Origin: a virus
Strand: one strand, 5' to 3'
IMG/VR virus record: IMGVR_UViG_3300002144_000193
Location: 1-32,573 of that record
Length of the DNA: 32,573 nucleotides
Below, piece after piece: positions 2,783 to 20,727 of the stretch. Below the pieces are notes generated by a model, which was not told where the DNA came from, did no database searches, and saw nothing but the letters and a program-made list of their open reading frames with translations. The position numbers and the translations under genes were made by a program. Each line of letters begins with the position of its first letter. The first letter of the stretch is position 1.

Positions 2783-4740
2783 TCGTTTTGGGCAAATACT
2801 TTAGCAAGTGTAGAAACAGTCCCGGCTATTTCGACATGTGCTTTGTTTGGCATATTACGTTGACGTTGAAAGATTCTAGTTGCAAATTCAACCAATGATA
2901 AGTTTTCTTCATGTGGTGTAGCATTTGTAAACGTATATGTTACTTGATTACGTAGTAACTCTACATCATTATTAATAAACTCATGTAAATTGTGCGTAAA
3001 TGATTTTGTTTCTGATACCAAATGTTTCTTTTCATAGTCAAAGTAACAGAAATCGTTGTACTCGCACAACTCTGCAAACAGATCAGCATCAAGTTGAGGC
3101 TCATAATAATCGTATACTATCTGTTTGATGTTGGTTTGCAACTGACCCACTACACACAATGTATTAAAGTATTGAAATTCTGCATGTTGAGTTAACCCAT
3201 ATTTAAAATTACCGGGAAGACCAGTATATACTTTAACAATTTCTTGCTCACATTCATTGTATGCGGCTTGGAGCATAGGATCAATCAATAGTAAATCTAT
3301 TACCTTTTCATAAAACTCCTTAAAGGATAAGGATAAATGTTTGCATGTAAATCTTGCAAACTCAGTAATTAAACCAGAGCCGTGTACTGTTGTAATTATA
3401 TTCGTAAACATGATTGCTTTAATGTGGTCATTAAATGGTAATGTGTTTGTTTCTACAACTATAGCAAGTGTTTCTTTAATCTCTGGACTATAATCATAAT
3501 TCTGGTTGGCAGTAATTCTGCTAGGAATAGTTTTTATACCATTTAATTTTCGTTGCAGTTTATTCAATTCTGTGTTCTCTAGTAATGCTGTTGGTTGAAC
3601 TTTAAAATTGTGATGCATACCAGATTCAAACAAATAATAAAAACCATCTTTCCAAGATTCAAGTGTTTCCATAGGAAGACCTAATATCATATCAACATCG
3701 TTTGATAAACCTGCGGCAGTACACTCTTTTACAAAATCTTTAACTTCATTGATGTCAAACTGATCACGTTTAATTTCTTTAAGAGTTTCGGGCGTGAATG
3801 TTTGTACCGAAATTGTTATACCGCTACGAATAGCATCACCTTTATTAGGTCTACTTAATTCTTTTGCGATGTTAATTATTTGCTCTCTGCTGTTTTTTGG
3901 CCAGTTCGGAACAATGTATTTAGGATAACCAGTAGCAATTCTTAGTTCACTTAAATACTTTGCTATTTCCATATCACGTTCATATAAAATTCCAAAGTTA
4001 GCATCATTGATATATAGTACTTCTATTTTATTTTTACTAAACCATTCTAATTCTTTTTTGACTGTGTCTAAATGTCGGACTCGAATTTTACTATAGGTCA
4101 GACTTCCCCAATCACAATATGTGCATTGGTACGGGCAACCTCTATTAGTGTCGATCATTCCGTCCCATTGAACGTCTGGGTATTTTTCAAAAAGAAAGTC
4201 GAATACACCTGTAGTGTAAGGACTAGGTAAATGTTCTAAGTTATTAATTCTAACAGTCGGTCCAGTATCGATAGCGTTACCATTGTCGTTAATAATCAAG
4301 CCAGATATTACAGACAAGTCTGTGTTAGAAATTCTAGCCTCTAATATATCTTTTAGAACAACATCTCCTTCTTGTTTTACTGCTACATCTATATAGGGTT
4401 TGTTTTGAAAAATCTTTGGATCACTGTGTTCTACTTCAGGTCCGCCAAAAACGATTAAACAATTTGGGAAGCGTTCTTTTATCTTCTCTGCTAGTTTACA
4501 GGTGTAGTTATAGTTCCAACAATAACAACTAAATCCAGCTACATCAATGTCTTCATATGAGTTAACTACTTCATCAATATTAAACCGCTCAACTTGTAAA
4601 TCTAGTAGATGATAATTTTGTTTAATCAAGTCGGAGTTTTGGCAGTTGGCCCACAAACAACCTATGGCATAGGGTAAGTACATTGCCTTCTTATTAATTA
4701 TCCAAACAAAACTTGCTTGTACTAATAAAATATTTTTCAT
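2779..4740 (-). CDS. B12-binding-type radical SAM protein
   Basis: A 653-aa protein with a cobalamin-binding-like Rossmann domain at about residues 1-140 (FSCYCWNYNYTCKLAEKI, LIVFGGPEVEH) and a radical SAM barrel from about 190. The 4Fe-4S motif is C202-PYQ-C206-TY-C209. The usual DxHxxG cobalamin motif is not seen, so the N-terminal domain may not bind B12. Family members methylate or rearrange unreactive carbons using S-adenosylmethionine; the substrate here is unknown. The ATG at 4740 has no Shine-Dalgarno and lies 6 nt after a TAAATA late motif (4747-4754). The gene also follows the phosphoesterase gene and could be read from the promoter at 5378. IscU, FNR and MetK elsewhere in the window could supply its cluster, electrons and substrate. 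Confidence 0.85.
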   Translation of the reverse strand: MKNILLVQASFVWIINKKAMYLPYAIGCLWANCQNSDLIKQNYHLLDLQVERFNIDEVVNSYEDIDVAGFSCYCWNYNYTCKLAEKIKERFPNCLIVFGGPEVEHSDPKIFQNKPYIDVAVKQEGDVVLKDILEARISNTDLSVISGLIINDNGNAIDTGPTVRINNLEHLPSPYTTGVFDFLFEKYPDVQWDGMIDTNRGCPYQCTYCDWGSLTYSKIRVRHLDTVKKELEWFSKNKIEVLYINDANFGILYERDMEIAKYLSELRIATGYPKYIVPNWPKNSREQIINIAKELSRPNKGDAIRSGITISVQTFTPETLKEIKRDQFDINEVKDFVKECTAAGLSNDVDMILGLPMETLESWKDGFYYLFESGMHHNFKVQPTALLENTELNKLQRKLNGIKTIPSRITANQNYDYSPEIKETLAIVVETNTLPFNDHIKAIMFTNIITTVHGSGLITEFARFTCKHLSLSFKEFYEKVIDLLLIDPMLQAAYNECEQEIVKVYTGLPGNFKYGLTQHAEFQYFNTLCVVGQLQTNIKQIVYDYYEPQLDADLFAELCEYNDFCYFDYEKKHLVSETKSFTHNLHEFINNDVELLRNQVTYTFTNATPHEENLSLVEFATRIFQRQRNMPNKAHVEIAGTVSTLAKVFAQND

Positions 4741-4746
4741 TAGTTG

Positions 4747-4754
4747 TATTTACC
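4747..4754 (-). promoter_or_regulatory. T4-type late promoter core (GGTAAATA)
   Basis: GGTAAATA lies 6 nt before the ATG of the radical SAM gene, inside the 3' end of the phosphoesterase gene. T4 late promoters (TATAAATA) start transcription about 6 nt past the last A, so the start would fall on or next to the AUG. Confidence 0.5.
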
Positions 4755-5349
4755 CATGAGAATTAAATTGAAGATTTTTGTCTTCATGTTTGTTGCTTCC
4801 GTTGCCGTTAATCATGCCCAATTTGCCACCTTGTGCTACAATTCTCTCTACCAAGTCTTCAAACTCAATTGGTTTCAAGTCTGTGTGTTCAGCAGATACG
4901 CACAAGAATCTAGGGTCAACCTGATGACCACCATACCTCATCACTTTACCAGCATGTAGATGACCATGTACGTTACACCCAAATCTACCCAACTGATCAA
5001 CATGTATTGGTATGTGAGTGAACACTAACCCGTTCGTTACATGACAACCTCTAACATCTTTAAAGACTTCAACGTACTTGTTTAACTTCAAGTTGTCGTG
5101 GTTACCTTTAATCAGTATTTTGATGCCATTCATCTGCTTGACTTTATCAAGTCCTCGTTGATTGAACGCAATATCACCTAACATGTAGACTTTATCCGTC
5201 GGTTTGACGAGTTCGTTGTGCAATTGAACCATTGCATCTTCCATATCCTCTACTGTATCGTACTGACGTAACTTATTGCCGGCCGCATCTGTGAAGTTCA
5301 CAATCTTGTTGTGACCGAAGTGTAAATCTGCTATGAAAAACTGTGCCAT
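4750..5349 (-). CDS. Calcineurin-like metallophosphoesterase
   Basis: This 199-aa protein carries all the motifs of the superfamily in order: D8-L-H10 with FGH, GDIAFN (D59), KGN-H84-D85 (the GNHD motif), H112 in FTHIP, and VHGHLH near 128-132. It would bind two metal ions and cleave a phosphomono- or diester. Short stand-alone members of this type are common in phages, and their substrates are mostly unknown. The C-terminal tail after residue 180 is low-complexity and polar. It is the first gene behind a consensus sigma70 promoter, so early expression is likely. The radical SAM gene follows after 9 nt. Confidence 0.85.
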   Translation of the reverse strand: MAQFFIADLHFGHNKIVNFTDAAGNKLRQYDTVEDMEDAMVQLHNELVKPTDKVYMLGDIAFNQRGLDKVKQMNGIKILIKGNHDNLKLNKYVEVFKDVRGCHVTNGLVFTHIPIHVDQLGRFGCNVHGHLHAGKVMRYGGHQVDPRFLCVSAEHTDLKPIEFEDLVERIVAQGGKLGMINGNGSNKHEDKNLQFNSHG

Positions 5350-5377
5350 TTTCTCTGTCTCTTTAATCTAAGTATCT

Positions 5378-5406: not shown

Positions 5407-5411
5407 CACCT

Positions 5412-5419
5412 AATAAATA
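5412..5419 (+). promoter_or_regulatory. T4-type late promoter core (AATAAATA)
   Basis: AATAAATA matches T4 TATAAATA at 7 of 8 positions and ends exactly 5 nt before the ATG of the nucleotidyltransferase gene. That spacing puts the expected +1 on the A of the AUG. No Shine-Dalgarno is present. It would drive the sugar cassette. Confidence 0.6.
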
Positions 5420-5424
5420 TATAC

Positions 5425-6120
5425 ATGAATATATTAATACCAGCCGCAGGCCTTGGCACTAGATTCAAAGGTCATTACGACAGCCCAAAAAACATGATTG
5501 ACGTTAAGGGTGAGCCTATGTTGGTCGCATCAGCAAGAAGTTTGCGAATGGACGGGCCTGAACACTCATTCATTTTTGTTATACCAGAAAACGATCATAC
5601 AGTTGAGTTGAAAGAACGACTCACTACAGAGTTTCCTGGTTGTAGAGTACTGAACATAGCAGGAAAATCTCAGGGGGCGGCAGAAACAGCAGTATCAGCA
5701 CAAGGATTTTTCTCTGAAGATGAAGAACTATTGATTGCTAACTGCGATCAGATCATGGCATGGAGTGATGAATCACGTGATAAAATATTTGACAAGTTAA
5801 GAGAGTTTGATGCTGGTATTGTTACTATTAAAAGTGATGACCCTAAACACAGTTATCTCAACCTAGAAACAGGCGAGATAGTAGAGAAAGAAGTTGTAAG
5901 TGATCAAGCATTAGTTGGATTACATTATTGGAAGCACGGTAAAGATTTTACCCAATCTACTAGATTGATGATGCAATCTGGAAAAAGATCAAGAGGTGAA
6001 TATTATATCGGACCTACATACAATTGGTTCGGTGGTTCAGCGGGGTATTATGAAATAGAAGAGAACGAAATTCATTTCATAGGCACACCAGAAGACTTAC
6101 AAGCATACCTTGAAAAATGA
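5425..6120 (+). CDS. Sugar-1-phosphate nucleotidyltransferase
   Basis: The 231-aa protein opens with MNILIPAAGLGTRF, the nucleotide-binding signature of nucleotidyl transferases, followed by SPKNMIDVKGEPML (the KP/K-P-M-L position). The aspartate in IANCDQI is the likely metal ligand. Such enzymes join a sugar-1-phosphate to NTP to give an NDP-sugar. The neighbours (cupin, phosphomannomutase-like protein) make mannose or a related hexose the likely sugar, but this is inference. The start is ATG 5425, with no Shine-Dalgarno and a late motif 5 nt upstream. The stop overlaps the next start (ATGA). First gene of a six- or seven-gene plus-strand unit. Confidence 0.85.
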   Translation: MNILIPAAGLGTRFKGHYDSPKNMIDVKGEPMLVASARSLRMDGPEHSFIFVIPENDHTVELKERLTTEFPGCRVLNIAGKSQGAAETAVSAQGFFSEDEELLIANCDQIMAWSDESRDKIFDKLREFDAGIVTIKSDDPKHSYLNLETGEIVEKEVVSDQALVGLHYWKHGKDFTQSTRLMMQSGKRSRGEYYIGPTYNWFGGSAGYYEIEENEIHFIGTPEDLQAYLEK

Positions 6121-8456: not shown

Positions 8457-8638
8457 CAGATAAAAAGAAAGGTAAGAATAAACCAGCAGTAGGTGACTAT
8501 ATCGTACACCGGGAGCCCTCGTTTAGTAGATCACATGAAGGTAAGATTATACTTATGTTAGCAATGCAGTTTGTATACAAAACACCTGATGGGCAAGAAC
8601 GTTTCTGTTTGTTCTCAGAAGATTGGAATCATAAATAA
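8453..8638 (+). CDS. Small conserved phage protein (61 aa)
   Basis: A basic N-terminus (MTDKKKGKNKP) is followed by VGDYIVHREPSFSRS and FVYKTPDGQERFCLFSEDW. The pattern is that of a small beta-barrel protein of unknown function known from T4-like marine phages. The start overlaps the SGNH stop (ATGA). Its last codons carry the CATAAATA motif that precedes the next gene. No catalytic residues are apparent. Confidence 0.65.
   Translation: MTDKKKGKNKPAVGDYIVHREPSFSRSHEGKIILMLAMQFVYKTPDGQERFCLFSEDWNHK
8630..8637 (+). promoter_or_regulatory. Possible late promoter core (CATAAATA)
   Basis: CATAAATA overlaps the stop of the 61-aa gene and ends 3 nt before the next ATG. That is closer than the 5 nt seen elsewhere, so it is a weaker example; it may be partly fortuitous because it contains the stop codon TAA. 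Confidence 0.35.
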
Positions 8639-8640
8639 AA

Positions 8641-9501
8641 ATGAAAGTAGATCACATTGCAGTTATACTAAGAGGACATGTCAGAACCTGGCACTATATT
8701 TGTCCAATGGTTTTTGATTTCTATGATAGTATCGCAAACAATGTTGATTATTATTTTATTACCTGGGAAAGAAGTAATACTGATGGTGTCGTAGAGACTT
8801 TTAAACACCAGAATCTGGTACACTTTCAAATTGTTTCACCTGAAGTGTGTGATACTGAATACTATAATAGTTTCACAAGTCCTGCATTTATGGGAGCGTT
8901 ACTTCTCCCTCATATCAGAACTACAGAAAAAAAATTAAAAAACAATACAAAAAAATACGATATCATATTTGATTCAAGGCCTGATGTGTTGCCGGAGAGA
9001 GTAAAGATAATACACGGGGATAAAGCAGGAGAATACTTGCCGTTTATCTTACCTGAAGAAAACACTGTTAATATTACAGGAGTAGAAATACATAACAATC
9101 AGATTGACCCAGTACATTGTACAAAAGGTCAACTACCTGATGTTGCAATACAAGACTGGTTAATAATGTTTACAAGTGCAAGTTTTGAACACCTCATTGA
9201 AAGATACATTTTACGAAATGCATTAGCATCCCATGATCTGCCCGGTAGTCAAATACAATATAGGCAATGGATCGAAGAACACAACGTAAACCTTTGTACA
9301 ATGGATTGGATAAATTGTGATATGATAAGGCCTTCATGTTTTGAAGTTGGTTGGGAGTCCAGAAATGATTACTCTACTATTATTCAATATTCGAAGAAAT
9401 GGCTAGAATTAGATTCAGAAACGAAAACAGAATTGTGTACTAAGTACGGAGTTTCGTTGTCTGACTATGTAGATACACCGTCTCTTACCTGTAAGATTTA
9501 A
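8641..9501 (+). CDS. Possible glycosyltransferase-like protein
   Basis: The 286-aa protein starts MKVDHIAVILRGHVRTWHY and includes VDYYFITWERSN and YDIIFDSRPDVLPER. This arrangement, with an N-terminal alpha/beta strand and an RxDV-type acidic motif, recalls uncharacterised glycosyltransferase-like proteins that occur in capsule and viral glycan clusters. I see no decisive DxD motif, so the assignment rests partly on context after an NDP-sugar pathway. It has no Shine-Dalgarno. Its 3' end overlaps the convergent metallopeptidase gene by 17 nt. Confidence 0.45.
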   Translation: MKVDHIAVILRGHVRTWHYICPMVFDFYDSIANNVDYYFITWERSNTDGVVETFKHQNLVHFQIVSPEVCDTEYYNSFTSPAFMGALLLPHIRTTEKKLKNNTKKYDIIFDSRPDVLPERVKIIHGDKAGEYLPFILPEENTVNITGVEIHNNQIDPVHCTKGQLPDVAIQDWLIMFTSASFEHLIERYILRNALASHDLPGSQIQYRQWIEEHNVNLCTMDWINCDMIRPSCFEVGWESRNDYSTIIQYSKKWLELDSETKTELCTKYGVSLSDYVDTPSLTCKI

Positions 9502-9931
9502 GTATCTCTTCCATCAACTTCGGTTGTTTGTCTGCTACATCTGCTTCCCAAGGTAACCTTAAATAGTCAGTGTACATCATCTGTGTAACATCTACTTCAT
9601 AAGTCTGTTTCTCCCAAACATAAACTCCAGCATGAGTAATCATTAACTGACCTATGTGCATTTGATGCAAGTGTATTAATTCATGCACGAGAGGAATCAT
9701 TATATCATTTATCTGTAAATCTTTGTTGAGTCTTATCTTTGTTTGATTCTTGTAATCAATTAATGTATCTCCGTAAGTATGCGGAGCCATAGGAGTAAAT
9801 TCTATACTGACAGACTCTGGTAAACTTAAGAGTTGTTCGACTTTATCGCAAATTACCTGGATTAATTTACATTTGTCTGATTCTTCGTAGCACAAAACAT
9901 TGGTTTGGACGAATTTAAAATTTAATTGCAT
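9485..9931 (-). CDS. HExxH zinc metallopeptidase-like protein
   Basis: The 148-aa protein contains H83-E84-LI-H87-LHQMH, a gluzincin/SprT-like zinc-binding helix, after a beta-rich N-terminal half. The third zinc ligand may be H92 or an acidic residue in YEVDVTQ; this is not certain. It could cleave a phage or host protein. The frame is open to 9946 (GTG), but I choose ATG 9929-9931 because it lies 4 nt after a TAAATA late motif and the upstream codons are the promoter itself. No Shine-Dalgarno is present. It is divergent from the gene at 9959, only 27 bp away. Confidence 0.7.
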   Translation of the reverse strand: MQLNFKFVQTNVLCYEESDKCKLIQVICDKVEQLLSLPESVSIEFTPMAPHTYGDTLIDYKNQTKIRLNKDLQINDIMIPLVHELIHLHQMHIGQLMITHAGVYVWEKQTYEVDVTQMMYTDYLRLPWEADVADKQPKLMEEILKSYR

Positions 9932-9935
9932 ACTG

Positions 9936-9952
9936 TATTTACTCACTAAATA
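9936..9952. promoter_or_regulatory. Back-to-back divergent late promoters
   Basis: TATTTA (9936-9941) and TAAATA (9947-9952) form an inverted pair separated by 5 nt. The minus-strand AGTAAATA ends 4 nt before the peptidase ATG (9931). The plus-strand ACTAAATA ends 6 nt before the hydroxylase ATG (9959). Both genes lack a Shine-Dalgarno, so both transcripts would be nearly leaderless. Confidence 0.6.
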
Positions 9953-9958
9953 TACTAT

Positions 9959-10594
9959 ATGGCTACATTGACAGACTTTATAACAAATTGGGGAGAAGTT
10001 GTAGAACTTGATTTCCCAAAGATGGATTTAAACAGAGTGAAAGATATCTGTGATAAACATCCAGGTTGGAAGCCCTATCAAGGTCACAAACAACCTAACA
10101 ATCGTTTTGGTTTGAGTGTGACTAGTTTAGATGGTCAATTCAGCGGAGATCCTGACTTAAACAGTTTAAGAGAGTGGTATAGGTTACACGGAGAATCATA
10201 CACAGAAGGTGATTTTAAAACACGAACAAATGTCTGTGCATTGATTCCAGAGTTAGACCAGTTTCTAAACTTTTGGGGACAGAACTTAGGCAGAACACAT
10301 TTTCTAAGATTAGATCAAGGTGGATTCTTTCCACCGCATAGAGATAATGGGGCAATTGTTGCTGTGCCTACGTTTAGAATCATGGTACCGATATACAACT
10401 TCGGCATTAATGACATGAAGTGGATACAAGAAGAAAAATTACTAAGGTTTGATTTAGGGGCAACATACTTTGTTAACACAAGCAGACTACATAGTCTTTT
10501 TAGTTTTGTTGACAATTGTTTAATGTTAGTCTTAAATATCAACACAGATGAACATATCTTAAACAAAATGGTGAAGAAAATTGTCGCAATTTAA
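9959..10594 (+). CDS. Aspartyl/asparaginyl beta-hydroxylase-like 2OG oxygenase
   Basis: In this 211-aa protein, FFPP-H127-R-D129 gives the HxD iron motif and TSRLH178SLFSF gives the distal histidine. They sit in a jelly-roll with MVPIYN and LGATYFVNT, as in the aspartyl beta-hydroxylase-like clan. A likely 2-oxoglutarate ligand was not pinned down. The substrate is unknown; protein or amino-acid hydroxylation is typical of the clan. The ATG lacks a Shine-Dalgarno and follows the divergent late promoter. It overlaps the PP-loop gene by 14 nt, and the two probably form one unit. Confidence 0.7.
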   Translation: MATLTDFITNWGEVVELDFPKMDLNRVKDICDKHPGWKPYQGHKQPNNRFGLSVTSLDGQFSGDPDLNSLREWYRLHGESYTEGDFKTRTNVCALIPELDQFLNFWGQNLGRTHFLRLDQGGFFPPHRDNGAIVAVPTFRIMVPIYNFGINDMKWIQEEKLLRFDLGATYFVNTSRLHSLFSFVDNCLMLVLNINTDEHILNKMVKKIVAI

Positions 10595-11594: not shown

Positions 11595-12374
11595 CCCTCT
11601 GCCAGGATTAGCATATAACTTGCCTCCCAAGAATTGAACAGACTTTTCTTGGTTAGTTGTTACCCACAATCTGTTTGCCCAATGAATACAGTACGGACTT
11701 GTCACTATCCCTTCTAATCTAGTGTCTTTTAATGGGTTAAGATGTGTCACTAGTATTTGATAATGCTTTGCATTTACTTCAAAGTTTCTTATATTAGTTT
11801 CTTCTATTTCAAATCTTTCATTGATCCACTCGGGAGTTGCCCACACTGGATACTCACTGTACAATTTAAAAGGCAGTTGTTTGTTTATCTCATCTAGTTC
11901 TTCTGGCTTATCTCTACCCAAAACACCTGTGCATATGTTAAGATAAAACCACAAGTCTTTCCAATTATGTGTGGGTCTAACTTTAGGAAAACCAAATGTT
12001 GGCCAAACTTGAATTGTTTGTCCTGTTTGTAATAAGATCGTTAGTCCGTCTTTAGATCGAGGGTCTTTCCAATGTAAGTTCTTTGGCCAATCATCACTAT
12101 TTTGAATTCTTGCAGACATGTTATCTTCAAGTTCCCAGGTATCTTTCGGCATATAAGTAAAATATGTTTCATACCACCCGAGATTAAGTACAAATTGTAC
12201 GTTAGGATATTTTGTAGTCAATTCAGTAGCGTACAGCATAGTACGTTTAGCATTAACTGATATATTACCGTTAAATATAACAAGATCAACTTCAGGAAGA
12301 TTTAGGTCAGCGAACTCTGTGGGTTCATTGAACCCATACATAAGATCGTGTATAACGTGAACTTTAAAAGGCAT
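11553..12374 (-). CDS. Degenerate metallophosphoesterase-like protein
   Basis: The 273-aa protein keeps the layout of calcineurin-like phosphoesterases but not their metal ligands. VIHDLMYGF stands where DxH should be, LVIFNGNIS where GDxxD should be, VLNLGWYE where GNHE should be, and VTHLNP and LYANPGRGS at the C-terminal motifs. It is therefore probably non-catalytic or has changed chemistry. The frame extends upstream to a GTG at 12401, but I choose ATG 12372-12374 (MPFKVHVIHD), which lies exactly 5 nt after GCTAAATA. It is divergent from the subtilase gene and overlaps the PP-loop gene 3' to 3'. Confidence 0.6.
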   Translation of the reverse strand: MPFKVHVIHDLMYGFNEPTEFADLNLPEVDLVIFNGNISVNAKRTMLYATELTTKYPNVQFVLNLGWYETYFTYMPKDTWELEDNMSARIQNSDDWPKNLHWKDPRSKDGLTILLQTGQTIQVWPTFGFPKVRPTHNWKDLWFYLNICTGVLGRDKPEELDEINKQLPFKLYSEYPVWATPEWINERFEIEETNIRNFEVNAKHYQILVTHLNPLKDTRLEGIVTSPYCIHWANRLWVTTNQEKSVQFLGGKLYANPGRGSIARGKVLEVDNI

Positions 12375-12379
12375 ACTGA

Positions 12380-12398
12380 TATTTAGCGGGGATAAATA
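12380..12398. promoter_or_regulatory. Second back-to-back divergent late promoter pair
   Basis: TATTTA (12380-12385) on one strand and TAAATA (12393-12398) on the other are separated by 7 nt. The minus copy (GCTAAATA) ends 5 nt before the ATG at 12374. The plus copy (GATAAATA) points to the subtilase gene about 100 nt away. Confidence 0.55.
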
Positions 12399-12461: not shown

Positions 12462-12500
12462 CATACAGTAGTAGCAAACAAAACATTGGAGCATACAAGC

Positions 12501-14291
12501 ATGAGTATCAGAGTAACATTTGACAGTGATGAGTCAACGGTCGCCTTCGCCGCAAAACACGGTTTACCGACACCCATCGGAAACAGTTTAGACGCTAGTT
12601 TTCATTTATTAGAGCAGGCAACGAAGGATGCAACAGTTTCAGTTGTTGCTCAAACAGACGATTCCGAACATGTATTCTTGGTTAAAGGCACACAATCTGC
12701 TATTGAACAACATGCTACTGTAGTAGCTGATTTAGGGCACGGTTGGTTTAAAGTTACATCAACTGCTGGTGCTGAATTGGCTAAGGTAGTCGATGCTATT
12801 GACGTTAACAGTCAACCAATTGAATACTTAGCAGTATCTAATATTACAACCACCTCAATTACTGCATCTGCTAATCTCCCTGAATCTACTGCAGGGCAGT
12901 GGGCACGAATTCGTGTTGCAAGTCAATATAGACCGTTAATTACTTCATACTCAATGCATGACACAAATGCTTTGTCAAAACCCGAATTATATATTATGGA
13001 CTCTGGGATTGACTTTACTCACCCTGAATTTGATGATGCTAACTTAGTTAAAGAAAACTTTTACGCACTTCCTGCGTTTAACGGTGATTATTCAGATCAA
13101 AAAGGTCACGGAACAGCAGTAGCGGCCATGGCAGTAGGCAAAAATTTAGGCATCACATCTCATTGTACACTTCGAAATGTTAAGATTGGCGGAGTAGTAG
13201 GCGGCGAAGATTATAATGCTAACTTAATCGAAATATCTGAGGCAATCGATGCTATCGTTGCAGAAGTTACAGCAGATCCAAACAAAACACGAATCGTTAA
13301 TATGTCATGGGGCATGGCTCGTTCAAGTTTCTTAGACGATAGAGTTCAAGGTTTAGTCGATGCAGGCGTGACTGTTATCTGTGCGGCAGGAAATGGTGGA
13401 CAAGACGTTGAAAATGTTAGTCCAGCAGGAATAGACGATGTTATTACTGTTGGTTCTATTGACAAATACGATATCCCATCTGGTTTCAACAACATCGCTC
13501 CTGGAGACTCTGGATTAACAACTGCAACTGGTTTAAATTTAGATATCTTTGCACCTGGCGAAGGTATTTTAGTTGCACATCCAGCTGGATTAGATGATTC
13601 AGGCATGCTTGGCAATCAAGGCGGACTGTACGGGGAAGCATCAGGAACATCTTTTGCATCACCACTAGTTGCTGGTATTGCAGTAGTAATAGGGTCAATG
13701 AATTCTTCTGCTATATTCTTTGACGAGATCAAAAGTACAATCCTTACGACTAGTACTAAAAATGCGTTGTTGTTTGAAGACGATACTTTTTCTGAGAATC
13801 AAAACGCACTAGCATATGTCTTTACTGCTGACCCCAACGCATCTTACAAAGACAACAACATGGTTTCATACATAGGCGTAAGTACCGGACAAGACCCTGA
13901 GGAAGAAGACATAATTGCTGATTTAAACTCTGCTCTGTCTATAGATTCATTCGTTGAGTTATACCCAGATGATGTTCCAGTATACAGCATTACGTGGAGC
14001 GACAGTGCTATTGAAGCAAAATACAGTCCTTACGTAACAGTTGATAGTGCTACAGGCATCGTTACTATTTCTCCAGCATCAGGACTTGTTTTACCAGAAG
14101 GAACACCTTTAGAACAAGTAGAATTTACCGGCAAAGTTTCAACATCAAAAATTACAATGACCACATCAACACTGTTATATTTTAATGCTAACATAGATTA
14201 CAAAGATACACAAAACTCTGACATAACACTTGCATTAACAGATGTTAACAGTATTAGTTTCTTTGCATACTGGTCAAGTAACATTAAATAA
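12501..14291 (+). CDS. Subtilisin-family (S8) serine protease
   Basis: The 596-aa protein has a complete S8 triad: D167 in MDSGID, H203 in KGHGTAVAAMA and S384 in GEASGTSFASPLVAGIA, with oxyanion N298 in CAAGNGG. Roughly 160 residues precede the catalytic domain and could be a propeptide. About 170 residues follow it, ending in a beta-rich region (YVTVDSATGIVTISPASG) like an Ig-type domain. No signal peptide is seen, so it may act in the infected cell or on the virion. Start ATG 12501 has GGAG 9 nt upstream. T4-like phages normally use a different fold for prohead processing, so this may be an added virion protease. Confidence 0.88.
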   Translation: MSIRVTFDSDESTVAFAAKHGLPTPIGNSLDASFHLLEQATKDATVSVVAQTDDSEHVFLVKGTQSAIEQHATVVADLGHGWFKVTSTAGAELAKVVDAIDVNSQPIEYLAVSNITTTSITASANLPESTAGQWARIRVASQYRPLITSYSMHDTNALSKPELYIMDSGIDFTHPEFDDANLVKENFYALPAFNGDYSDQKGHGTAVAAMAVGKNLGITSHCTLRNVKIGGVVGGEDYNANLIEISEAIDAIVAEVTADPNKTRIVNMSWGMARSSFLDDRVQGLVDAGVTVICAAGNGGQDVENVSPAGIDDVITVGSIDKYDIPSGFNNIAPGDSGLTTATGLNLDIFAPGEGILVAHPAGLDDSGMLGNQGGLYGEASGTSFASPLVAGIAVVIGSMNSSAIFFDEIKSTILTTSTKNALLFEDDTFSENQNALAYVFTADPNASYKDNNMVSYIGVSTGQDPEEEDIIADLNSALSIDSFVELYPDDVPVYSITWSDSAIEAKYSPYVTVDSATGIVTISPASGLVLPEGTPLEQVEFTGKVSTSKITMTTSTLLYFNANIDYKDTQNSDITLALTDVNSISFFAYWSSNIK

Positions 14292-14318: not shown

Positions 14319-14326
14319 ACTAAATA
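14319..14326 (+). promoter_or_regulatory. Late promoter core (ACTAAATA)
   Basis: ACTAAATA ends exactly 5 nt before ATG 14332, with no Shine-Dalgarno between. Predicted +1 is the A of the start codon. Confidence 0.6.
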
Positions 14327-14331
14327 TAGAT

Positions 14332-15114
14332 ATGCAGATTGAACATATTACTAGAAATAAACCAAACAAACACTGGTCTACACAACACTCGTTGGATGCC
14401 TATGTCTACAAAGACGTATATTCTGATGCTATGTATTCTCAAATCGAACAAACTGTTCTTTCGCAACTAGATACTACCAACACATCTACCTACAAAACAC
14501 ACGGGACTTCTTTTTCGCATCAGAACAAAAAGTTTCACGTTATCTCACATAAACAAAACGACAGAAATCAACTAGTCGTTTATGATTTGACATTTGAAAA
14601 AGACTATTGGCATCAAACTAAAGATACGATACACGATTGGTCCTGGCAACATCTAAGAACTAACATTCACCCGTTATTCTATCGTCATTTAAATATACTT
14701 AAAAATTTAGAGCCTTTTGCTGACGAACCTGATGCATGGGTTCCGTATCGTTGGCATTTTAACTATAACACTTATACTAAATATTTGGCATTACACACAG
14801 ATATGGCTAATACATATTTTAATACACCTAGTTCGCATACTGCAAGAGCAAGGTCTGTAACATTTTATCTACATGATTATGTAGAGAATGGAGGCGGTGA
14901 GTTTTATACATTAAATGGCGACTTTGTTTACCGACCTAAGAAAAATGAAGCACTATGCATCAATGGCAATGGAATAGTACACGGCGTTAATTCACATATG
15001 GGCATTGATGGCAAACCACGATTAGCGTTTACTGTGCGTTGGGCCCACAAAGGCGATTTGTACTTACCCGGACATCCAGATAAAACATTATATAATTTAG
15101 GATTACCTACATGA
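14332..15114 (+). CDS. Prolyl-4-hydroxylase-like 2OG-Fe(II) oxygenase
   Basis: This 260-aa protein carries the iron triad H155-T-D157 (LALHTDMAN) and H217 (GNGIVHGV), with R230 (KPRLAFTVRW) as the 2-oxoglutarate ligand. RARSVTFYLHDYVENGGGEF is the typical core strand pair of P4H-like enzymes. The N-terminal 130 residues are unassigned. The substrate is unknown. It begins with a leaderless-type start after ACTAAATA and overlaps the GNAT gene by 4 nt (ATGA), so the two are translated together. Confidence 0.8.
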   Translation: MQIEHITRNKPNKHWSTQHSLDAYVYKDVYSDAMYSQIEQTVLSQLDTTNTSTYKTHGTSFSHQNKKFHVISHKQNDRNQLVVYDLTFEKDYWHQTKDTIHDWSWQHLRTNIHPLFYRHLNILKNLEPFADEPDAWVPYRWHFNYNTYTKYLALHTDMANTYFNTPSSHTARARSVTFYLHDYVENGGGEFYTLNGDFVYRPKKNEALCINGNGIVHGVNSHMGIDGKPRLAFTVRWAHKGDLYLPGHPDKTLYNLGLPT

Positions 15115-16170: not shown

Positions 16171-16187
16171 TAAAGTGTGAGTCTGTT

Positions 16188-16844
16188 TTAGAATGTATAA
16201 ACGTAGTTTACAAATAGATTGTCTTCGTCTAACAGTCCAGAAGCATCATCGGCAGTAAAGTCAGTATAACCAACTTTAACTGTTCCCTTAAGAGCATCAA
16301 AACTTTTAGAGATTGCCCAATGTGTTCCTTGTCCTTCTGCATCACCATACGCCATGTCAACAACTTTTAACAAGCCTGTTGAAAATTCTGTATAGTCAGA
16401 TGCTTCGTCTTGTCCCATATAATGAGCCACTGTAACACCTGCTAGTGTAGCAGAAATTAGGATTTCTTCATAGTCTAAAGATGAGTTTCCGCGGTATCCG
16501 TAGTCTATATAGGCTACATTAAAACCAACGTGCTTCCAATCTTTTTTGAGGCCGACAACAGTATCGATTTCGTGTTCGGCTTTACCGTCACCAAAATCAA
16601 CTTCTGATACCCAAGCACTTGCGTATACACCACCTATAATATCAGCATCTATTGATGCAGACAATACGTGATTACCTTCGTGCTGTGAGATTCCTCTGAA
16701 GACATAATCTGATCCTATGCCAACACTGCCACTAAATGTGGATGCGTTGACTCCGTTTGCAATACAAACTAGTGATAATGCTATCACTAATTTAATTACG
16801 TTGTCAAAATGATCTTTTAAAAGACCTTTAAGTTTCTCTAACAT
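16188..16844 (-). CDS. TorF/Gcw_chp-type putative outer-membrane porin
   Basis: The 218-aa protein has a basic N-terminus, a hydrophobic segment at about 17-30 (VIKLVIALSLVCIANG) and a likely signal peptidase site after NA near residue 34. The mature part starts with FSGSVGIGSDYVFRGISQ, the signature of the Gcw_chp (PF09694, TorF-like) family. It continues as alternating amphipathic strands and ends NLFVNYVYTF, an aromatic C-terminus typical of beta-barrels. It would be exported to the host outer membrane. ATG 16844 is preceded by AAGGAG and AAGGAAAT. It follows a one-TM gene by 58 nt and is closed by a strong terminator. A phage copy suggests envelope alteration during infection. Confidence 0.8.
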   Translation of the reverse strand: MLEKLKGLLKDHFDNVIKLVIALSLVCIANGVNASTFSGSVGIGSDYVFRGISQHEGNHVLSASIDADIIGGVYASAWVSEVDFGDGKAEHEIDTVVGLKKDWKHVGFNVAYIDYGYRGNSSLDYEEILISATLAGVTVAHYMGQDEASDYTEFSTGLLKVVDMAYGDAEGQGTHWAISKSFDALKGTVKVGYTDFTADDASGLLDEDNLFVNYVYTF

Positions 16845-16902
16845 ATTTCCTTTCTCCTTGCGTTTAAAACAATTGTTATTATTAAATAAGATGGGTTAGT
16901 TC

Positions 16903-17052
16903 TTATTTGCGGTTGGTATTTTTAGAATTAGAAGGTGATCCTGATCCTGATCCTGATCCTGATCCGCCAACTTTCTTATCTTTTCTTTTTTTCATTACGA
17001 AAAAAATGACCGCGCCGACAATAACTATTGCGAGTATTGTTTGAAAATCCAT
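16903..17052 (-). CDS. Small one-TM protein with Gly-Ser linker (49 aa)
   Basis: The frame starts MDFQTILAIVIVGAVIFFVM, a single hydrophobic helix of about 16 residues with a very short N-terminus. Then comes a KKRKDKK cluster, a (GS)5 run and a polar tail ending NTNRK. GGAGG lies 7 nt before the ATG, strong support for translation. The basic stop-transfer cluster suggests the N-terminus outside and the tail in the cytoplasm. The size and charge recall small phage membrane proteins such as holins or inhibitors, but no family is recognised. The next gene downstream is the porin-like gene, probably in one operon. Confidence 0.75.
   Translation of the reverse strand: MDFQTILAIVIVGAVIFFVMKKRKDKKVGGSGSGSGSGSPSNSKNTNRK
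16937..16966. repeat. GATCCT hexanucleotide tandem repeat
   Basis: Four GATCCT units and one GATCCG encode the (GS)5 linker of the 49-aa membrane protein. Unit gain or loss would keep the frame and only change linker length. Confidence 0.9.
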
Positions 17053-17077
17053 ATAATTTCCTCCATTAAATTTTCGG

Positions 17078-17104
17078 TTACAGAACTACTGATTGCAATT
17101 CCAT
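17078..17104 (-). CDS. Possible leaderless minicistron (8 aa)
   Basis: ATG 17102-17104 begins MELQSVVL and stops at TAA, 26 nt before the 49-aa gene. It lies exactly 5 nt after GGTAAATA, the same geometry as the leaderless genes in the window. The coding assignment rests only on that arrangement; it may be a leader peptide or chance. Confidence 0.3.
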   Translation of the reverse strand: MELQSVVL

Positions 17105-17109
17105 ACTAA

Positions 17110-17117
17110 TATTTACC
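17110..17117 (-). promoter_or_regulatory. Late promoter core (GGTAAATA)
   Basis: GGTAAATA on the minus strand precedes the 49-aa membrane protein and porin-like genes. The rest of 17118-17204 is AT-rich with imperfect TAGTA repeats, and I see no gene in it. Confidence 0.5.
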
Positions 17118-17204
17118 GTTTTTTGTGGTGTTAAAGTAGTATCATACAATATATAGTAGTATATTATTACTTATTAATTGGGATATAGGAAAGAAATTTC
17201 AAAA

Positions 17205-17936
17205 TTAAAAAGTATTGAAATCGACAAATGCTTTTTCAATTACATATTGTCCTTGTTCTCGGTTTGACCCTTCTGTCATGCCCATCTCTTTACACCAATC
17301 AACTACATCATAATTGAATTGTAGATTGCCACATGCCATAACTCTATCATCTTCTTTTAAGAATCTAAAGTTAATTCTTTCATCACCTTCTCCTGTAACA
17401 AGAGCAGTGTATTCAAGTTTGTCTTTGAGTATTTCATGGATGTCTGGCTCTGTATCTGCGAACGCATTCTTTAGTTCATCATAGTAAGCCAAGTCTTTAC
17501 TGTCTCTCACACTGTGAACTAAGTGTATGTGATCAAATCGTTCTATGATATCAAGGTCTTTGATTGTTGACATGAAGGGAGCAAGACCAGTGCCAGTTGC
17601 TAACAAAACTAATCGTTTGCCACCATCTGATAAAAAATCATTGCGTAATGTTCCTGTACACTTAGGCAAGAGTAGAAGTTCATCACCTTCTTTAGCGTTT
17701 GCTAATTCGTTAGTAAGAGGGCCTACATTCTTAATGCTTAGAAACTCTAAGTAGTCAGCCCAAGGAGGACTAACAATGCTATATGCTCTAATAACATTTT
17801 TACCATACTTAACACTCTTAAGGCCGATCATCGCAAACTCACCAGAGTTAAATTTGAATGAATCACTTCTAGTTGTTCTAAAACTAAAAGTTCGATCTGA
17901 CCAATGTGTTACTTTTGTTATCGTTTCTTTTAACAT
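17205..17936 (-). CDS. fpr: Ferredoxin/flavodoxin-NADP+ reductase
   Basis: The 243-aa protein has an FAD domain with R50-AYSIVS (FAD binding) and IKNVGPLT. The NADP domain has LLATGTGLAPFMSTIKD near 111-127 and MACGNLQFNYDV. The C-terminus QGQYVIEKAFVDF matches the conserved end of bacterial Fpr. It moves electrons between NADPH and ferredoxin or flavodoxin. In a phage it could support radical SAM chemistry, Fe-S assembly or ribonucleotide reduction (inference). ATG 17936 has TAGGA upstream. It is downstream of tRNA-Leu in the unit driven from 18458. Confidence 0.9.
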   Translation of the reverse strand: MLKETITKVTHWSDRTFSFRTTRSDSFKFNSGEFAMIGLKSVKYGKNVIRAYSIVSPPWADYLEFLSIKNVGPLTNELANAKEGDELLLLPKCTGTLRNDFLSDGGKRLVLLATGTGLAPFMSTIKDLDIIERFDHIHLVHSVRDSKDLAYYDELKNAFADTEPDIHEILKDKLEYTALVTGEGDERINFRFLKEDDRVMACGNLQFNYDVVDWCKEMGMTEGSNREQGQYVIEKAFVDFNTF

Positions 17937-17954
17937 AAATTCCTATACATAATA

Positions 17955-18041
17955 TGGTACGAGTGGCCGGACTTGAACCGGCACAATATTTCTATCGAGG
18001 GATTTTAAGTCCCTTGTGTCTACCAATTCCACCACACTCGC
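17955..18041 (-). tRNA. tRNA-Leu (anticodon TAA)
   Basis: An 87-nt class II tRNA. Acceptor GCGAGTG pairs with CACTCGT (a G-T first pair). The anticodon stem is GGGAC-side/GTCCC-type with loop containing TAA, followed by a long variable arm and a T stem GCCGG/CCGGC. CCA is encoded. It reads UUA, a codon favoured in AT-rich genomes. Its 5' end directly follows the stop codon of the 69-aa gene. Confidence 0.93.
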
Positions 18042-18251
18042 TTAATTTTGTTTACCCCATTCAAGTTTTTCTTCTAGTGCGACTTGAACACCGTGTATGT
18101 AATCTCTATCTTCTTCACTTAGCACTTCCCAAGCAAAGGTAACTTTGTCTAATAAGTCTGTTACTTTTTCAGGTTCAGCAAGATGTTCGTTTGCTTCCAT
18201 GATGCGTTGTATCTCATCCATTCTCGCAGTCAACTTTTCTCGTAATTTCAT
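18042..18251 (-). CDS. Conserved T4-like phage protein (69 aa)
   Basis: A highly charged helical protein beginning MKLREKLTARMDEIQRIMEAN and containing KVTFAWEVLSEEDRDYIHG, a pattern I associate with short uncharacterised proteins next to tRNAs in T4-like marine phages. GAGAG lies just before the ATG. Its TAA stop is immediately followed by tRNA-Leu, so tRNA processing would trim the mRNA right at the stop codon. Function unknown. Confidence 0.8.
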   Translation of the reverse strand: MKLREKLTARMDEIQRIMEANEHLAEPEKVTDLLDKVTFAWEVLSEEDRDYIHGVQVALEEKLEWGKQN

Positions 18252-18270
18252 AGACTCTCTCTGTAGTAAA

Positions 18271-18344
18271 TGGTGGAGAATAAGAGAGTCGAACTCTTAA
18301 CTGCTCCGTGCAAGGGAGCCGTGATCCCATTTCACCAATTCCCC
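18271..18344 (-). tRNA. tRNA-Ala (anticodon TGC)
   Basis: A 74-nt cloverleaf. Acceptor GGGGAAT pairs with ATTCTCC and includes the G3-U70 pair that marks alanine tRNAs. The anticodon stem is GCTCC/GGAGC with loop CTTGCAC (anticodon TGC), and the T stem is AAGAG/CTCTT. CCA is encoded. Confidence 0.95.
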
Positions 18345-18350
18345 AGAAAT

Positions 18351-18426
18351 TGGAGCTCGGAACAGGAATCGAACCTGCGACCTGAGGTTTACAAAACCCC
18401 TGCTCTACCTACTGAGCTATCCGAGC
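18351..18426 (-). tRNA. tRNA-Thr (anticodon TGT)
   Basis: A 76-nt cloverleaf. Acceptor GCTCGGA pairs with TCCGAGC. The anticodon loop is TTTGTAA with anticodon TGT, and the T stem is GCAGG/CCTGT around TTCGATT. CCA is encoded. It is the first gene of the tRNA/FNR unit. Confidence 0.95.
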
Positions 18427-18457
18427 GTTTACAATCATTGTCTATTATTTAGATCAA

Positions 18458-18485
18458 ATTATAGCATACAAAATAAATTTGTCAA
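18458..18485 (-). promoter_or_regulatory. Strong sigma70 promoter for the tRNA/FNR unit
   Basis: On the minus strand, TTGACA (18480-18485), a 16-nt spacer ending TGC and a perfect TATAAT (18458-18463) give a consensus -35 and an extended -10. The predicted start is near 18451. It would drive tRNA-Thr, tRNA-Ala, the 69-aa gene, tRNA-Leu and probably the reductase. Confidence 0.85.
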
Positions 18486-18500
18486 CGACATGTTTTCCCA

Positions 18501-18508
18501 AATAAATA
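18501..18508 (+). promoter_or_regulatory. Late promoter core (AATAAATA)
   Basis: AATAAATA ends exactly 5 nt before ATG 18514, and no Shine-Dalgarno is present. The predicted transcript begins at the AUG. It is divergent from the early tRNA promoter 16 bp away. Confidence 0.6.
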
Positions 18509-18513
18509 CTAGT

Positions 18514-19068
18514 ATGGATCAACAATCATTCTCTCACGGACAAACACAAAGCAAACTTTGGCTATGCGAAAACATAGAACCATTGCTACCAAATAATGCA
18601 GTTGTTGCAATATTAGGGTGCTGGTATAACATGTTAGGTTTTATGCTTATAACTCGTAACCAAGACTACTATCAGCATGTCTTGGGCTTAGATATCGCTT
18701 CAGAAGCGATTACAGGGGCTAATACGCTGTGTGAAGGGTATATGTTTGGCTATGGCACTACAAAGATTAATAACAAATGTGCTGATGCAAACACTTATAA
18801 TCTACAAGGATATAATGTAGTAATTAACTGTAGCACAGAGCATATGACTAACGAATGGTTTGACAATATTGATCCAAATGCACTTGTCTGTTTGCAAACA
18901 AGTGACCATGATAACCAAGAAGAACCATGGTTAATTAGTAATCCAACCAAGAGCCTAGATGAGTTTGTCGCAAAGTATCCTATGCGAGAGATATTATATT
19001 CGGGGAGTAAATTCTTCCAATATCCAGATGTCAGTTATAATAGACACATGATTATTGGAAGAAAATAA
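18514..19068 (+). CDS. SAM-dependent methyltransferase-like protein
   Basis: A 184-aa Rossmann-type protein: VVAILGCWYNMLGFML at about 31-45 is the motif I position, VLGLDIASEAI supplies the acidic residue after strand 2 (D60), and YNVVINCSTEHMT is the motif IV position. The N-terminal helix-rich segment MDQQSFSHGQTQSKLWLCEN is typical of small class I methyltransferases. The glycine pattern of motif I is weak, so SAM binding is not certain. The frame opens upstream at 18490, but ATG 18514 fits the late promoter spacing. It ends back to back with the convergent peroxiredoxin gene. Confidence 0.6.
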   Translation: MDQQSFSHGQTQSKLWLCENIEPLLPNNAVVAILGCWYNMLGFMLITRNQDYYQHVLGLDIASEAITGANTLCEGYMFGYGTTKINNKCADANTYNLQGYNVVINCSTEHMTNEWFDNIDPNALVCLQTSDHDNQEEPWLISNPTKSLDEFVAKYPMREILYSGSKFFQYPDVSYNRHMIIGRK

Positions 19069-19656
19069 TTATAAAGTACAACCACCGACTTCACGTCCAG
19101 CTGGTGTATTCGCACATGCTTGGATAGCATCTAACACTCGTAGAGTCTCTTGTGCTGATCGTCCTGTGCTTAGATCGTTTACAGTAACATGCTGAATTAC
19201 ATTGTGTGGGTCAACAATAAAGGTAGCACGTAAACATGCTCCTGCAGGATTAAAGAAGATACCTAACTGTCTGCATAGACTATAGTTATGAACTTCACCA
19301 CCATCGCCCATGTAACTTCGTTGAGTATCTGCAAACTGATTATGTTTGATTTCTCGCAGACCAGGATGTTCTTTCTGCCATGCTAGTTTACAAAATTCAT
19401 TATCAGTACTACCTGTCAATAAAACTGTGTCTCTACTTTCAAATTCATCATTTAATGAATCATAATCTATGATTTCCGTTGGACAAACAAATGTAAAGTC
19501 TTTTGGATAGAACATTAGAATCTTCCATTTACCTTCAAAAGATGTTTCATTAATCTCAAAGAACTGATCTGTGTCTGGTTGACCTGGTTTAACCCCTGTT
19601 ACTTTAAACGGTGCTAGTTTATCACCTACTGTTTTCATTCCTGCGTTACCTGGCAT
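19069..19656 (-). CDS. 2-Cys peroxiredoxin (AhpC/Prx1 type)
   Basis: The 195-aa protein has the peroxidatic site DFTFVCPTEI (C58), then GACLRATFIVDP and HVTVNDLSTGRSAQETLRVLDA, all typical of the Prx1/AhpC group. C193 in the closing GGCTL is a candidate resolving cysteine. It reduces hydrogen peroxide or alkyl peroxides and needs a thiol or AhpF-type reductant, probably from the host. The frame extends to an ATG at 19683, but I choose ATG 19656 (MPGNAGMKTVG) because AGGAG lies 8 nt upstream and the longer start overlaps the late motif at 19685. Confidence 0.92.
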   Translation of the reverse strand: MPGNAGMKTVGDKLAPFKVTGVKPGQPDTDQFFEINETSFEGKWKILMFYPKDFTFVCPTEIIDYDSLNDEFESRDTVLLTGSTDNEFCKLAWQKEHPGLREIKHNQFADTQRSYMGDGGEVHNYSLCRQLGIFFNPAGACLRATFIVDPHNVIQHVTVNDLSTGRSAQETLRVLDAIQACANTPAGREVGGCTL

Positions 19657-19684
19657 TAATAATACTCCTGTGTGTATGCCCATG

Positions 19685-19692
19685 TATTTACA
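19685..19692 (-). promoter_or_regulatory. Late promoter core (TGTAAATA) for peroxiredoxin
   Basis: TGTAAATA on the minus strand predicts a start near 19679, giving a 23-nt leader with AGGAG before ATG 19656. This conventional leader contrasts with the leaderless neighbours. Confidence 0.5.
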
Positions 19693-19698
19693 CTAGTT

Positions 19699-20715
19699 TT
19701 ATCGCATAAAAATATTTTTTAGAGTTTGAGGCTGAATTATTTTTTTAATCTTCCAAACGTCTTCTCCAGAAAATGGCTTTTCAGTACAAAGCGAGACTGT
19801 AAATTTATAGGTTCCAGCTTTAGACAATTTAAAGAAAGTACTCCATTTCCATGGCGGTGCACCATCTTTTAAATGTAATGTTTTATCAGTAGAAGATATT
19901 TTATTATCAATTGCTACTGTAACTTGTTTGTCTTCATCTAAATGTATTTCAAATGACACATCATCTGGTAAATGGTCTTTGTTTATGCTAACAATATCTT
20001 TTAGTGTTTGATCTGGTTTGATATCTACCGCATTCAGTTCGGCATATATTTTAAACGAAGGCATGAAACCAGTATGTTGGATGATTGGTCTGGGACGAAA
20101 GGCATCGGCATGAGTTGGGTTCCTATCAAAATTTAGCAATGCTTCACTAAACTTAGGAAGCAACAATGCGTCTTCATCTAGCATATTATGTTTGACAGGC
20201 TGTGTTACTTGATCTTCTACTTCGCCTGTTACAAGATCAAAGTGTGAGTTCCATACATGTACGTCACAATGTAATCGATCAGGTATACTGATAGCATCGT
20301 CTTTAAAGAACTTATGTTTTGCACAGTTCTTCCAAACTGTATATTGTCCTTCGTCAAACAATGATTCTCCTACTAATTCACTAACCAAAACATCAATCGA
20401 TTGTTCTGGTATCATGTCTATGATTTGTTCGTTAGGGAATCTTCCAGTGATTACTTTGAATTTAGATTGATCGTAGCAACTTTCTAGTGCGAATTGTGCT
20501 ACTTTAGCAGATTGTTCTATTTGTTCTACTGCATAAACGAATTTAGCACCATGTTCTAGTGCGTATGCCGCAAGTAATCCAGTGCCTGAGCCTACATCAA
20601 GTACTACTTTGCCCTTAACATGCTTCTTTAATGCATCATAAAAGAACTGATTTCTCAACTTATCGTTAAGCATTGTGACATATAGACCGAAAATTCTTTG
20701 ATTTAACTCTATCAT
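19699..20715 (-). CDS. Protein arginine methyltransferase (PRMT)-like protein
   Basis: The 338-aa protein has a class I SAM domain with VLDVGSGTGLLAAYALEHGA (motif I, about 38-57) and AVEQ (end of strand 2). SELVGESLFDE, with E113 and E122, has exactly the spacing of the PRMT double-E loop. Near 287-298, PPWKWSTFFKL sits where PRMTs have the THW loop, with T-H replaced. The C-terminal half is a beta-rich barrel-like region, as in PRMTs. These enzymes methylate arginine in proteins; the altered THW loop leaves this unproven. The frame opens with TTG 20730, but ATG 20713-20715 fits, 4 nt after GAGTAAATA and without a Shine-Dalgarno. Confidence 0.72.
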   Translation of the reverse strand: MIELNQRIFGLYVTMLNDKLRNQFFYDALKKHVKGKVVLDVGSGTGLLAAYALEHGAKFVYAVEQIEQSAKVAQFALESCYDQSKFKVITGRFPNEQIIDMIPEQSIDVLVSELVGESLFDEGQYTVWKNCAKHKFFKDDAISIPDRLHCDVHVWNSHFDLVTGEVEDQVTQPVKHNMLDEDALLLPKFSEALLNFDRNPTHADAFRPRPIIQHTGFMPSFKIYAELNAVDIKPDQTLKDIVSINKDHLPDDVSFEIHLDEDKQVTVAIDNKISSTDKTLHLKDGAPPWKWSTFFKLSKAGTYKFTVSLCTEKPFSGEDVWKIKKIIQPQTLKNIFMR

Positions 20716-20719
20716 GTTG

Positions 20720-20727
20720 TATTTACT
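20720..20727 (-). promoter_or_regulatory. Late promoter core (AGTAAATA)
   Basis: AGTAAATA on the minus strand ends 4 nt before the PRMT-like ATG at 20715. The same AGTAAATACA string precedes the metallopeptidase ATG at 9931. Confidence 0.55.

Follow-up and report, generated by a model that had tools for sequence, protein, structure and literature searches.

The window analysed here is a stretch of 32,573 nucleotides of viral DNA (IMG/VR record IMGVR_UViG_3300002144_000193) in which the earlier note had picked out ten TAAATA hexamers, hereafter boxes, lying a few nucleotides 5' of an ATG, and had read them as late promoters of leaderless mRNAs. All ten boxes are present at those positions, and every gap given between box and ATG is exact. 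They are listed here with two further promoters of the window.

4740..4752, minus strand: B12-binding radical SAM gene; TAAATA, gap 6, ATG 4740; ambiguous
5414..5425, plus strand: sugar nucleotidyltransferase-like gene, predicted leaderless; box 5414-5419, gap 5, ATG 5425
8632..8641, plus strand: ATG 8641; TAAATA, gap 3, the box overlapping the stop of the upstream ORF
9931..9959, both strands: divergent pair, predicted leaderless; ATGs 27 nt apart, boxes 9936-9941 (minus) and 9947-9952 (plus)
12374..12385, minus strand: predicted leaderless gene; box 12380-12385, gap 5, ATG 12374
14321..14332, plus strand: predicted leaderless gene; TAAATA box, gap 5, ATG 14332
17052..17115, minus strand: predicted leadered late-type promoter of a 49-aa ORF; box 17110-17115, predicted +1 at 17104, Shine-Dalgarno GGAGG, ATG 17052
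18503..18514, plus strand: predicted leaderless gene, TAAATACTAGT-ATG; gap 5, start at 18514 and not 18490
19656..19690, minus strand: predicted leadered late-type promoter of a peroxiredoxin gene; box 19685-19690, 23-nt leader with AGGAG, ATG 19656
20715..20725, minus strand: methyltransferase gene; TAAATA, gap 4, ATG 20715; unsupported as leaderless
23621..23665, minus strand: predicted leadered late-type promoter of metK; box 23660-23665, 33-nt leader with AAGGA, ATG 23621

Rfam matches in the window are to tRNAs only. The small gene at 27212-27520 has no tblastn match in the phage collection, and the ferredoxin-NADP reductase-like gene, searched as a clue to the host, matched nothing in genome_contigs.

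It is the position of the hexamer that is enriched, not its abundance. Across the window TAAATA occurs 38 times against 45.6 expected, and overall enrichment was dropped as an argument. Ten boxes lie 3-6 nt 5' of an ATG that opens at least 60 codons, whereas circular shifts gave a mean of 0.46 and a maximum of 5 in 20,000. This set contains a box absent from the earlier ten, at 6434(+) with a gap of 6, which has a Shine-Dalgarno sequence and an overlap with the preceding gene; a leaderless start there is improbable. When starts were picked blind to the motif, in the window together with four relatives, TAAATA at gap 5 came first in enrichment among all pairings of hexamer and distance (26 observed versus 2.1 expected), outranking the Shine-Dalgarno hexamers.

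Six sites, at 5425(+), 9931(-), 9959(+), 12374(-), 14332(+) and 18514(+), are convincing as predicted leaderless starts because their orthologues keep TAAATA 4-6 nt 5' of the same ATG while the spacer varies; the same test of orthologue upstream regions produced two hits among control genes. At 12374, 14 of the 19 distinct upstream regions of homologues retain the box, in 11 cases at gap 5, and none has a Shine-Dalgarno sequence; at 18514 it stands at gap 5 in five of six. The divergent geometry of 9931 and 9959 is conserved in several distinct relatives, with the box at gap 5 in 6/6 homologue upstreams of the former and kept in 14/28 of the latter. The 14332 box recurs in 6/10 upstreams, again with no Shine-Dalgarno sequence; orthologues lie at 120119 in relative G001 and 34363 in G004, and a search of viral_contigs with 14332 itself gave no relatives. 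The 5425 box is kept in seven of 26 distinct upstreams, six of them at gap 5, with counterparts at 5628 in G003 and 44751 in G004. Conservation at 5425 and 9959 is only partial over wide distances. Three of these starts, 9931, 12374 and 18514, had been moved earlier to fit the motif, and the moves are borne out by orthologue N termini that begin at the same place; those of 18514 begin MDxxSFSHGQTQSKLWLCE right at that ATG.

The other sites of the original ten fared differently. The ATG at 17104(-) opens just eight codons and had been misread as a gene start; it is followed by GGAGGAAATTATATG and the 49-aa ORF from 17052(-), so that the box is better taken as an ordinary leadered promoter. Neither 8641, whose box is conserved in 0/4 orthologue upstreams, nor 20715 (0/1) is supported by conservation, and the 88%-identical orthologues L082-L084 share the ATG of 20715 and have no box. 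For the radical SAM gene at 4740 no homologue was found among the fetched loci or in viral_contigs; the upstream gene (5349-4750) ends with the TAA of this box, and translational coupling is therefore possible.

The box resembles the late promoter of T4. TAAATA with a fixed gap of 5 fits the T4-type core TATAAATA at -13 to -6, the span published for the T4 box (PMC2988020), and in this register, at the most common gap, 5 nt, +1 falls on the A of the AUG, as the earlier note had proposed and as the sequences strongly suggest. Gaps of 4 and 6 also occur and would leave +1 and AUG one base out of step. In boxes of the clade to which the window belongs, position -12 is mostly A, whereas -13 is variable with A preferred. 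No -35 element was found in 43 gap-5 sites, columns -38 to -30 holding at most 0.18 bits. The base at -1 is initiator-like, being a pyrimidine in 25/25 clade sites and in 14/15 sites of SAR11 phages, compared with 56% and 43%, respectively, at starts with a Shine-Dalgarno sequence. Such a sequence is present at two of 60 TAAATA sites with gaps of 4-6 versus 424 of 942 other starts, and the clade's start codons at these gaps are 47 ATG versus five GTG or TTG. In the same genomes TAAATA also precedes Shine-Dalgarno-bearing genes at gaps of 16-45, in a promoter-like manner. In the clade, T4, cyanophages and KVP40, leadered sites show a peak of pyrimidine-purine (YR) steps at the sixth base, which is again the predicted +1; no clear peak was seen there in the leadered sites of SAR11 phages.

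Counts over whole genomes bear out the earlier note's expectation, the architecture lying far above chance in relatives. Gap 4-6 and gap 16-45 boxes number 41:48 in the clade and 19:55 in SAR11/OM43 phages, versus 3:223 in nine control phages (Fisher, 6e-23 and 3e-10). In the start set examined, T4, KVP40, Syn9 and S-PM2 have no TAAATA site at gap 4-6; cyanophage P-SSM2 has three, all exactly at gap 5. The layout, which is probably leaderless, characterizes a large aquatic group of T4-related phages, whereas T4 and most studied relatives are without it. A blind scan of IMG/VR found about 100 divergent gene pairs with two back-to-back boxes in 26-28 bp, with both frames open in 46/59 and 53/59 distinct hits; in a box-less CAT-N26/28-ATG control the corresponding values were just 0.4% and 1.3%.

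It had been suggested that accessory genes are leaderless and structural genes leadered. This division did not survive comparison with relatives and SAR11 phages, where the box-ATG layout is found at DNA end protector, head closure, baseplate, tape measure and tail tube genes. In SAR11 phage HTVC008M the gap from box to RefSeq start is exactly 5 at late structural genes, among them those for the baseplate wedge and for DNA end protector and head closure, which form a divergent pair; the architecture is therefore not limited to accessory genes. The presence of the box at such genes, together with its T4-type core, is in keeping with the late timing predicted for this phage.

We consider it likely that the boxes are late promoters of the gp55 (T4-like) type whose position makes transcription begin on the A of the ATG. 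Host RNA polymerase with a phage gp55-like sigma would recognize the TAAATA box alone, with no -35 element, and initiate at the sixth base past its last A. If this base is also the first of the ATG, the product would be a leaderless mRNA, on which translation would begin at the 5'-terminal AUG with no Shine-Dalgarno sequence; ordinary leadered late promoters would coexist in these genomes. Because such a promoter needs little DNA, two could fit back to back in the 26-28 bp between divergent starts. A gp55-family sigma gene (phrog_12791/phrog_234) adjoins gp47 in relatives G001 and G008; it is absent from the 32.6-kb window fragment. The other two factors of the T4 system that the earlier note had suggested looking for, the gp33 co-activator and the gp45 clamp, are found in HTVC008M and Mosig, and family searches gave no member of either in the clade records, which are incomplete.

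A different reading assigns the box to translation, as an A/U-rich S1-binding element or start-site enhancer on leadered mRNAs from promoters further upstream. Initiation without a Shine-Dalgarno sequence can indeed be assisted by A/U-rich stretches 5' of the AUG, but such an enhancer requires neither an exact gap nor a pyrimidine at -1, and divergent pairs 26-28 nt apart would need a leader starting inside the opposite gene. The promoter-like use of the hexamer at gaps of 16-45, the only use made of it by T4-type phages lacking the architecture, makes this reading improbable.

Slightly less probable still is a start-abutting promoter read by the host primary sigma (extended -10 type), which would make the genes early or constitutive. 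In its favour, a number of bacteria commonly have leaderless genes with a -10 element spaced in this way, and several genes of the window are accessory genes that need not be late. However, the box has the sequence of the T4 late core, TAAATA, rather than TATAAT, the -35 region is featureless as described above, HTVC008M carries the box at virion genes, and gp55-like genes are present. Coincidence between a common A/T-rich hexamer and chosen start codons, for which the shifted starts and the unremarkable overall count might speak, is refuted for the set as a whole by motif-blind starts, orthologue conservation, circular shifts and the independent collection scan, although it likely accounts for 8641 and possibly for 20715.

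The gp55-type reading likely extends to a widespread late programme of marine and freshwater T4-related phages, SAR11 phages included, in which the promoter is fused to the start codon, structural and accessory late mRNAs are leaderless, and two promoters share 26-28 bp between divergent genes, their transcripts possibly being mutually exclusive at initiation. If so, a sizeable share of what abundant aquatic phages express late is initiated without a Shine-Dalgarno sequence, TAAATA-N5-ATG should serve gene callers as a start signal, and phages of slow-growing, genome-streamlined hosts offer a system for asking why virion genes have leaderless mRNA. Pelagimyophages were the subject of a published attempt to predict middle and late promoters, which failed (PMC7029224), perhaps partly because boxes stand directly before start codons.

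Compared with known systems, the proposed promoters share with the T4 late promoter (gp55 sigma, gp33 co-activator, gp45 clamp) the core, the lack of a -35 element, the predicted start and, in relatives of the window, a gp55-like gene; the T4 box, by contrast, lies 16-45 nt upstream of the start, mostly with a Shine-Dalgarno sequence between, and the clade differs further in its preference for A at -13 and in that its fragmentary records yielded no gp33 or gp45. The cyanophage late promoter NATAAATA of S-PM2 and Syn9 has the same core motif (PMC2984593), but these phages are leadered. In phiKZ, too, a late promoter motif (TATG) overlaps the transcription start, yet it is read by a phage multisubunit polymerase and its +1 is the G of TATG (PMC4666361), so it is not an AUG-leaderless design; identity with phiKZ-like promoters was dropped on both counts. 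Bacterial leaderless mRNAs, for example those of mycobacteria, likewise have a 5'-terminal AUG and no Shine-Dalgarno sequence, but they arise from host promoters, whereas a phage late sigma system is proposed here.

Ten TAAATA boxes (the core of T4-type late promoters) lie 3–6 nt before an ATG with at least 60 codons open in the window, a 32,573-base fragment of the virus record; 20,000 circular shifts averaged 0.46 such boxes and never gave more than 5. The motif overall is not over-represented there (38 found versus 45.6 expected); the excess over chance lies in placement before ATG, not in abundance. The ten boxes listed in the earlier note and their gaps (nucleotides between box and ATG) are all exact in the sequence. 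A further site, 6434, absent from that list, has a Shine-Dalgarno (SD) sequence and overlaps the preceding gene. The listed start at 17104(-) was a misreading and is rejected: the frame open from that ATG spans just 8 codons, and the real ORF starts at 17052. From 17104(-) the predicted transcript would extend over 52 nt before reaching GGAGGAAATTAT-ATG at 17052, where an ORF with a hydrophobic N-terminal stretch and a GSGSGSGS tract begins:
16903-17052, minus strand: 49-aa ORF with a good SD, behind a leadered box (17110-17115)

Relatives were collected as contigs with orthologues of the 9959 gene, including four large records (G001, 128 kb; G002, 92 kb; G003, 67 kb; G004, 71 kb), each with a gap-5 maximum in the ATGs that follow TAAATA. 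When each greedily chosen ORF was started at its most upstream ATG, a crude choice yet blind to the motif, TAAATA at gap 5 ranked first among all hexamer-by-gap combinations, above SD hexamers (26 observed versus 2.1 expected, P ~1e-19). P values overstate independence because some starts are orthologous to one another; despite this, the direction is the same in every record. In G001, ATG 56498(-) (L157), 4 nt after TAAATA, opens a 5,499-codon frame. G001 96234(+) and G004 11064(+) share a conserved 6-codon ORF, MLKRQI, 5 nt after a TAAATA box.

Retention of the box among orthologues, counted as distinct upstream sequences, varies by site; the test covered the sites below, and 4740 had no homologue among the loci retrieved.
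9931: 6/6
18514: 5/6
12374: 14/19
14332: 6/10
9959: 14/28
5425: 7/26
8641: 0/4
20715: 0/1
6434: 1/5, with an SD in 4/5

Control window genes, nrdA, nrdB, PAAR and metK among them, have a box at gap 3–7 in 2 of ~200 upstreams. The box and its distance persist across orthologues, while spacer sequence and flanks diverge. Some starts had been moved to fit the motif, but at 9931, 12374 and 18514 the orthologues have exactly the chosen ATG as their first codon, which removes that worry for these three.

The T4 register, with which three signs agree, places the predicted transcription start (+1) at gap-5 sites on the A of AUG. The T4 late box spans -13 to -6 (PMC2988020), so +1 would be the base after a 5-nt gap, here that A. 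A pyrimidine precedes the ATG at 25/25 gap-5 sites in the clade (window plus relatives) and 14/15 in SAR11 phages, versus 56% and 43% of SD starts, respectively; column -1 holds 1.13 bits and columns -2 to -5 little information. At leadered sites, where TAAATA lies further upstream, pyrimidine-purine steps are most frequent at the sixth base past the box; this holds for the clade, T4, cyanophages and KVP40, while SAR11 phages show no clear peak. Box-abutting sites use ATG nearly exclusively and have an SD in 2/60 cases, versus 424/942 other starts; no -35 conservation was found at them. Gap-4 and gap-6 sites would need a one-base shift of +1 or a one-base leader.

The strongest anatomical argument for leaderlessness is the spacing of divergent pairs. 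In the window, 27 nt separate ATG 9931(-) from ATG 9959(+) and hold two boxes placed back to back, a layout found again in several distinct relatives and, at 26 nt and with different genes, at the DNA end protector/head closure pair of the SAR11 phage HTVC008M. Two blind motif scans of IMG/VR (CAT-N5-TATTTA-N4 or N6-TAAATA-N5-ATG) each gave 59 distinct sites. Both frames are open at 46/59 and 53/59, counting frames that run off the contig, versus 0.4% (CAT-N26-ATG) and 1.3% (CAT-N28-ATG) of pairs on the same contigs that lack the boxes. Genes at these pairs include DNA end protectors, head closure proteins and head-tail adaptors. A separation of 26–28 bp leaves no space for a leader and SD, unless the transcript begins within the opposite gene.

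Late timing was examined through gp55, the T4 late sigma, its co-activator gp33 and the clamp gp45. A gp55-like gene (phrog_12791/phrog_234) is present, adjoining gp47 in relatives G001 and G008, with ~40% protein identity to gp55 of Pseudomonas phage PA5oct; family searches of the relatives' fragmentary records did not find gp33 or gp45. In T4, virion genes of the kinds listed below count as late genes. In HTVC008M (RefSeq starts) each begins exactly 5 nt after TAAATA:
16007, minus strand: tape measure
18916, minus strand: DNA end protector
18943, plus strand: head closure
19456, plus strand: tail tube cap
31132, plus strand: baseplate wedge
49760, plus strand: baseplate wedge initiator

The proposed split between leaderless accessory and leadered structural genes therefore fails. 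The CsgF, 2OG oxygenase and cyclase genes of HTVC008M likewise start exactly 5 nt after TAAATA.

Sites with gap 4–6 versus gap 16–45
Clade: 41:48
HTVC008M, Mosig (SAR11) and Melnitz (OM43) together: 19:55
P-SSM2: 3:37
Nine control phages (T4, KVP40, S-PM2, Syn9, Cr30, Atu_ph07, PBECO4, X1, PA5oct; some in part only): 3:223

Unlike the clade, T4, KVP40, S-PM2 and Syn9 have no gap 4–6 sites. These counts place the architecture in two distant branches, the Kyanoviridae of SAR11/OM43 and the clade that includes the window, with a gp55 nearest to that of jumbo phages; the data are compatible with either convergence or ancestry. In SAR11 phages (HTVC008M, L268-L271 and L192-L195; Mosig, L261-L267) the most enriched start-proximal hexamer is TATATT at gap 0, with 16 observed directly before ATG versus 0.55 expected.

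In the literature searched, leaderless late mRNAs were nowhere described for T4-related phages, although papers outside it may exist. Prediction of middle and late promoters in pelagimyophages 'was unsuccessful' (PMC7029224), and 15 late promoters were counted in Melnitz, in passages silent on leaders (PMC9004378). The AR9 paper describes phage transcripts as often leaderless (PMC5312081), so leaderlessness is not in itself a novelty.

Other features of the window include a subtilisin-like protease ORF with TTGGAG after the nearer of its two boxes:
12486-14291, plus strand: subtilisin-like protease ORF, TAAATA boxes upstream at 12393 and 12456

A cluster of host-like metabolic genes at 16188-23621, assigned mainly by reading translations, comprises porin-like, ferredoxin-NADP reductase-like, peroxiredoxin, methyltransferase, IscU-like and MetK genes. 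An SD and a short ORF (~17 codons, within 22410-22470(-)) come after a box at 22492-22497(-); the ORF overlaps the iscU-like start and possibly encodes a leader peptide.
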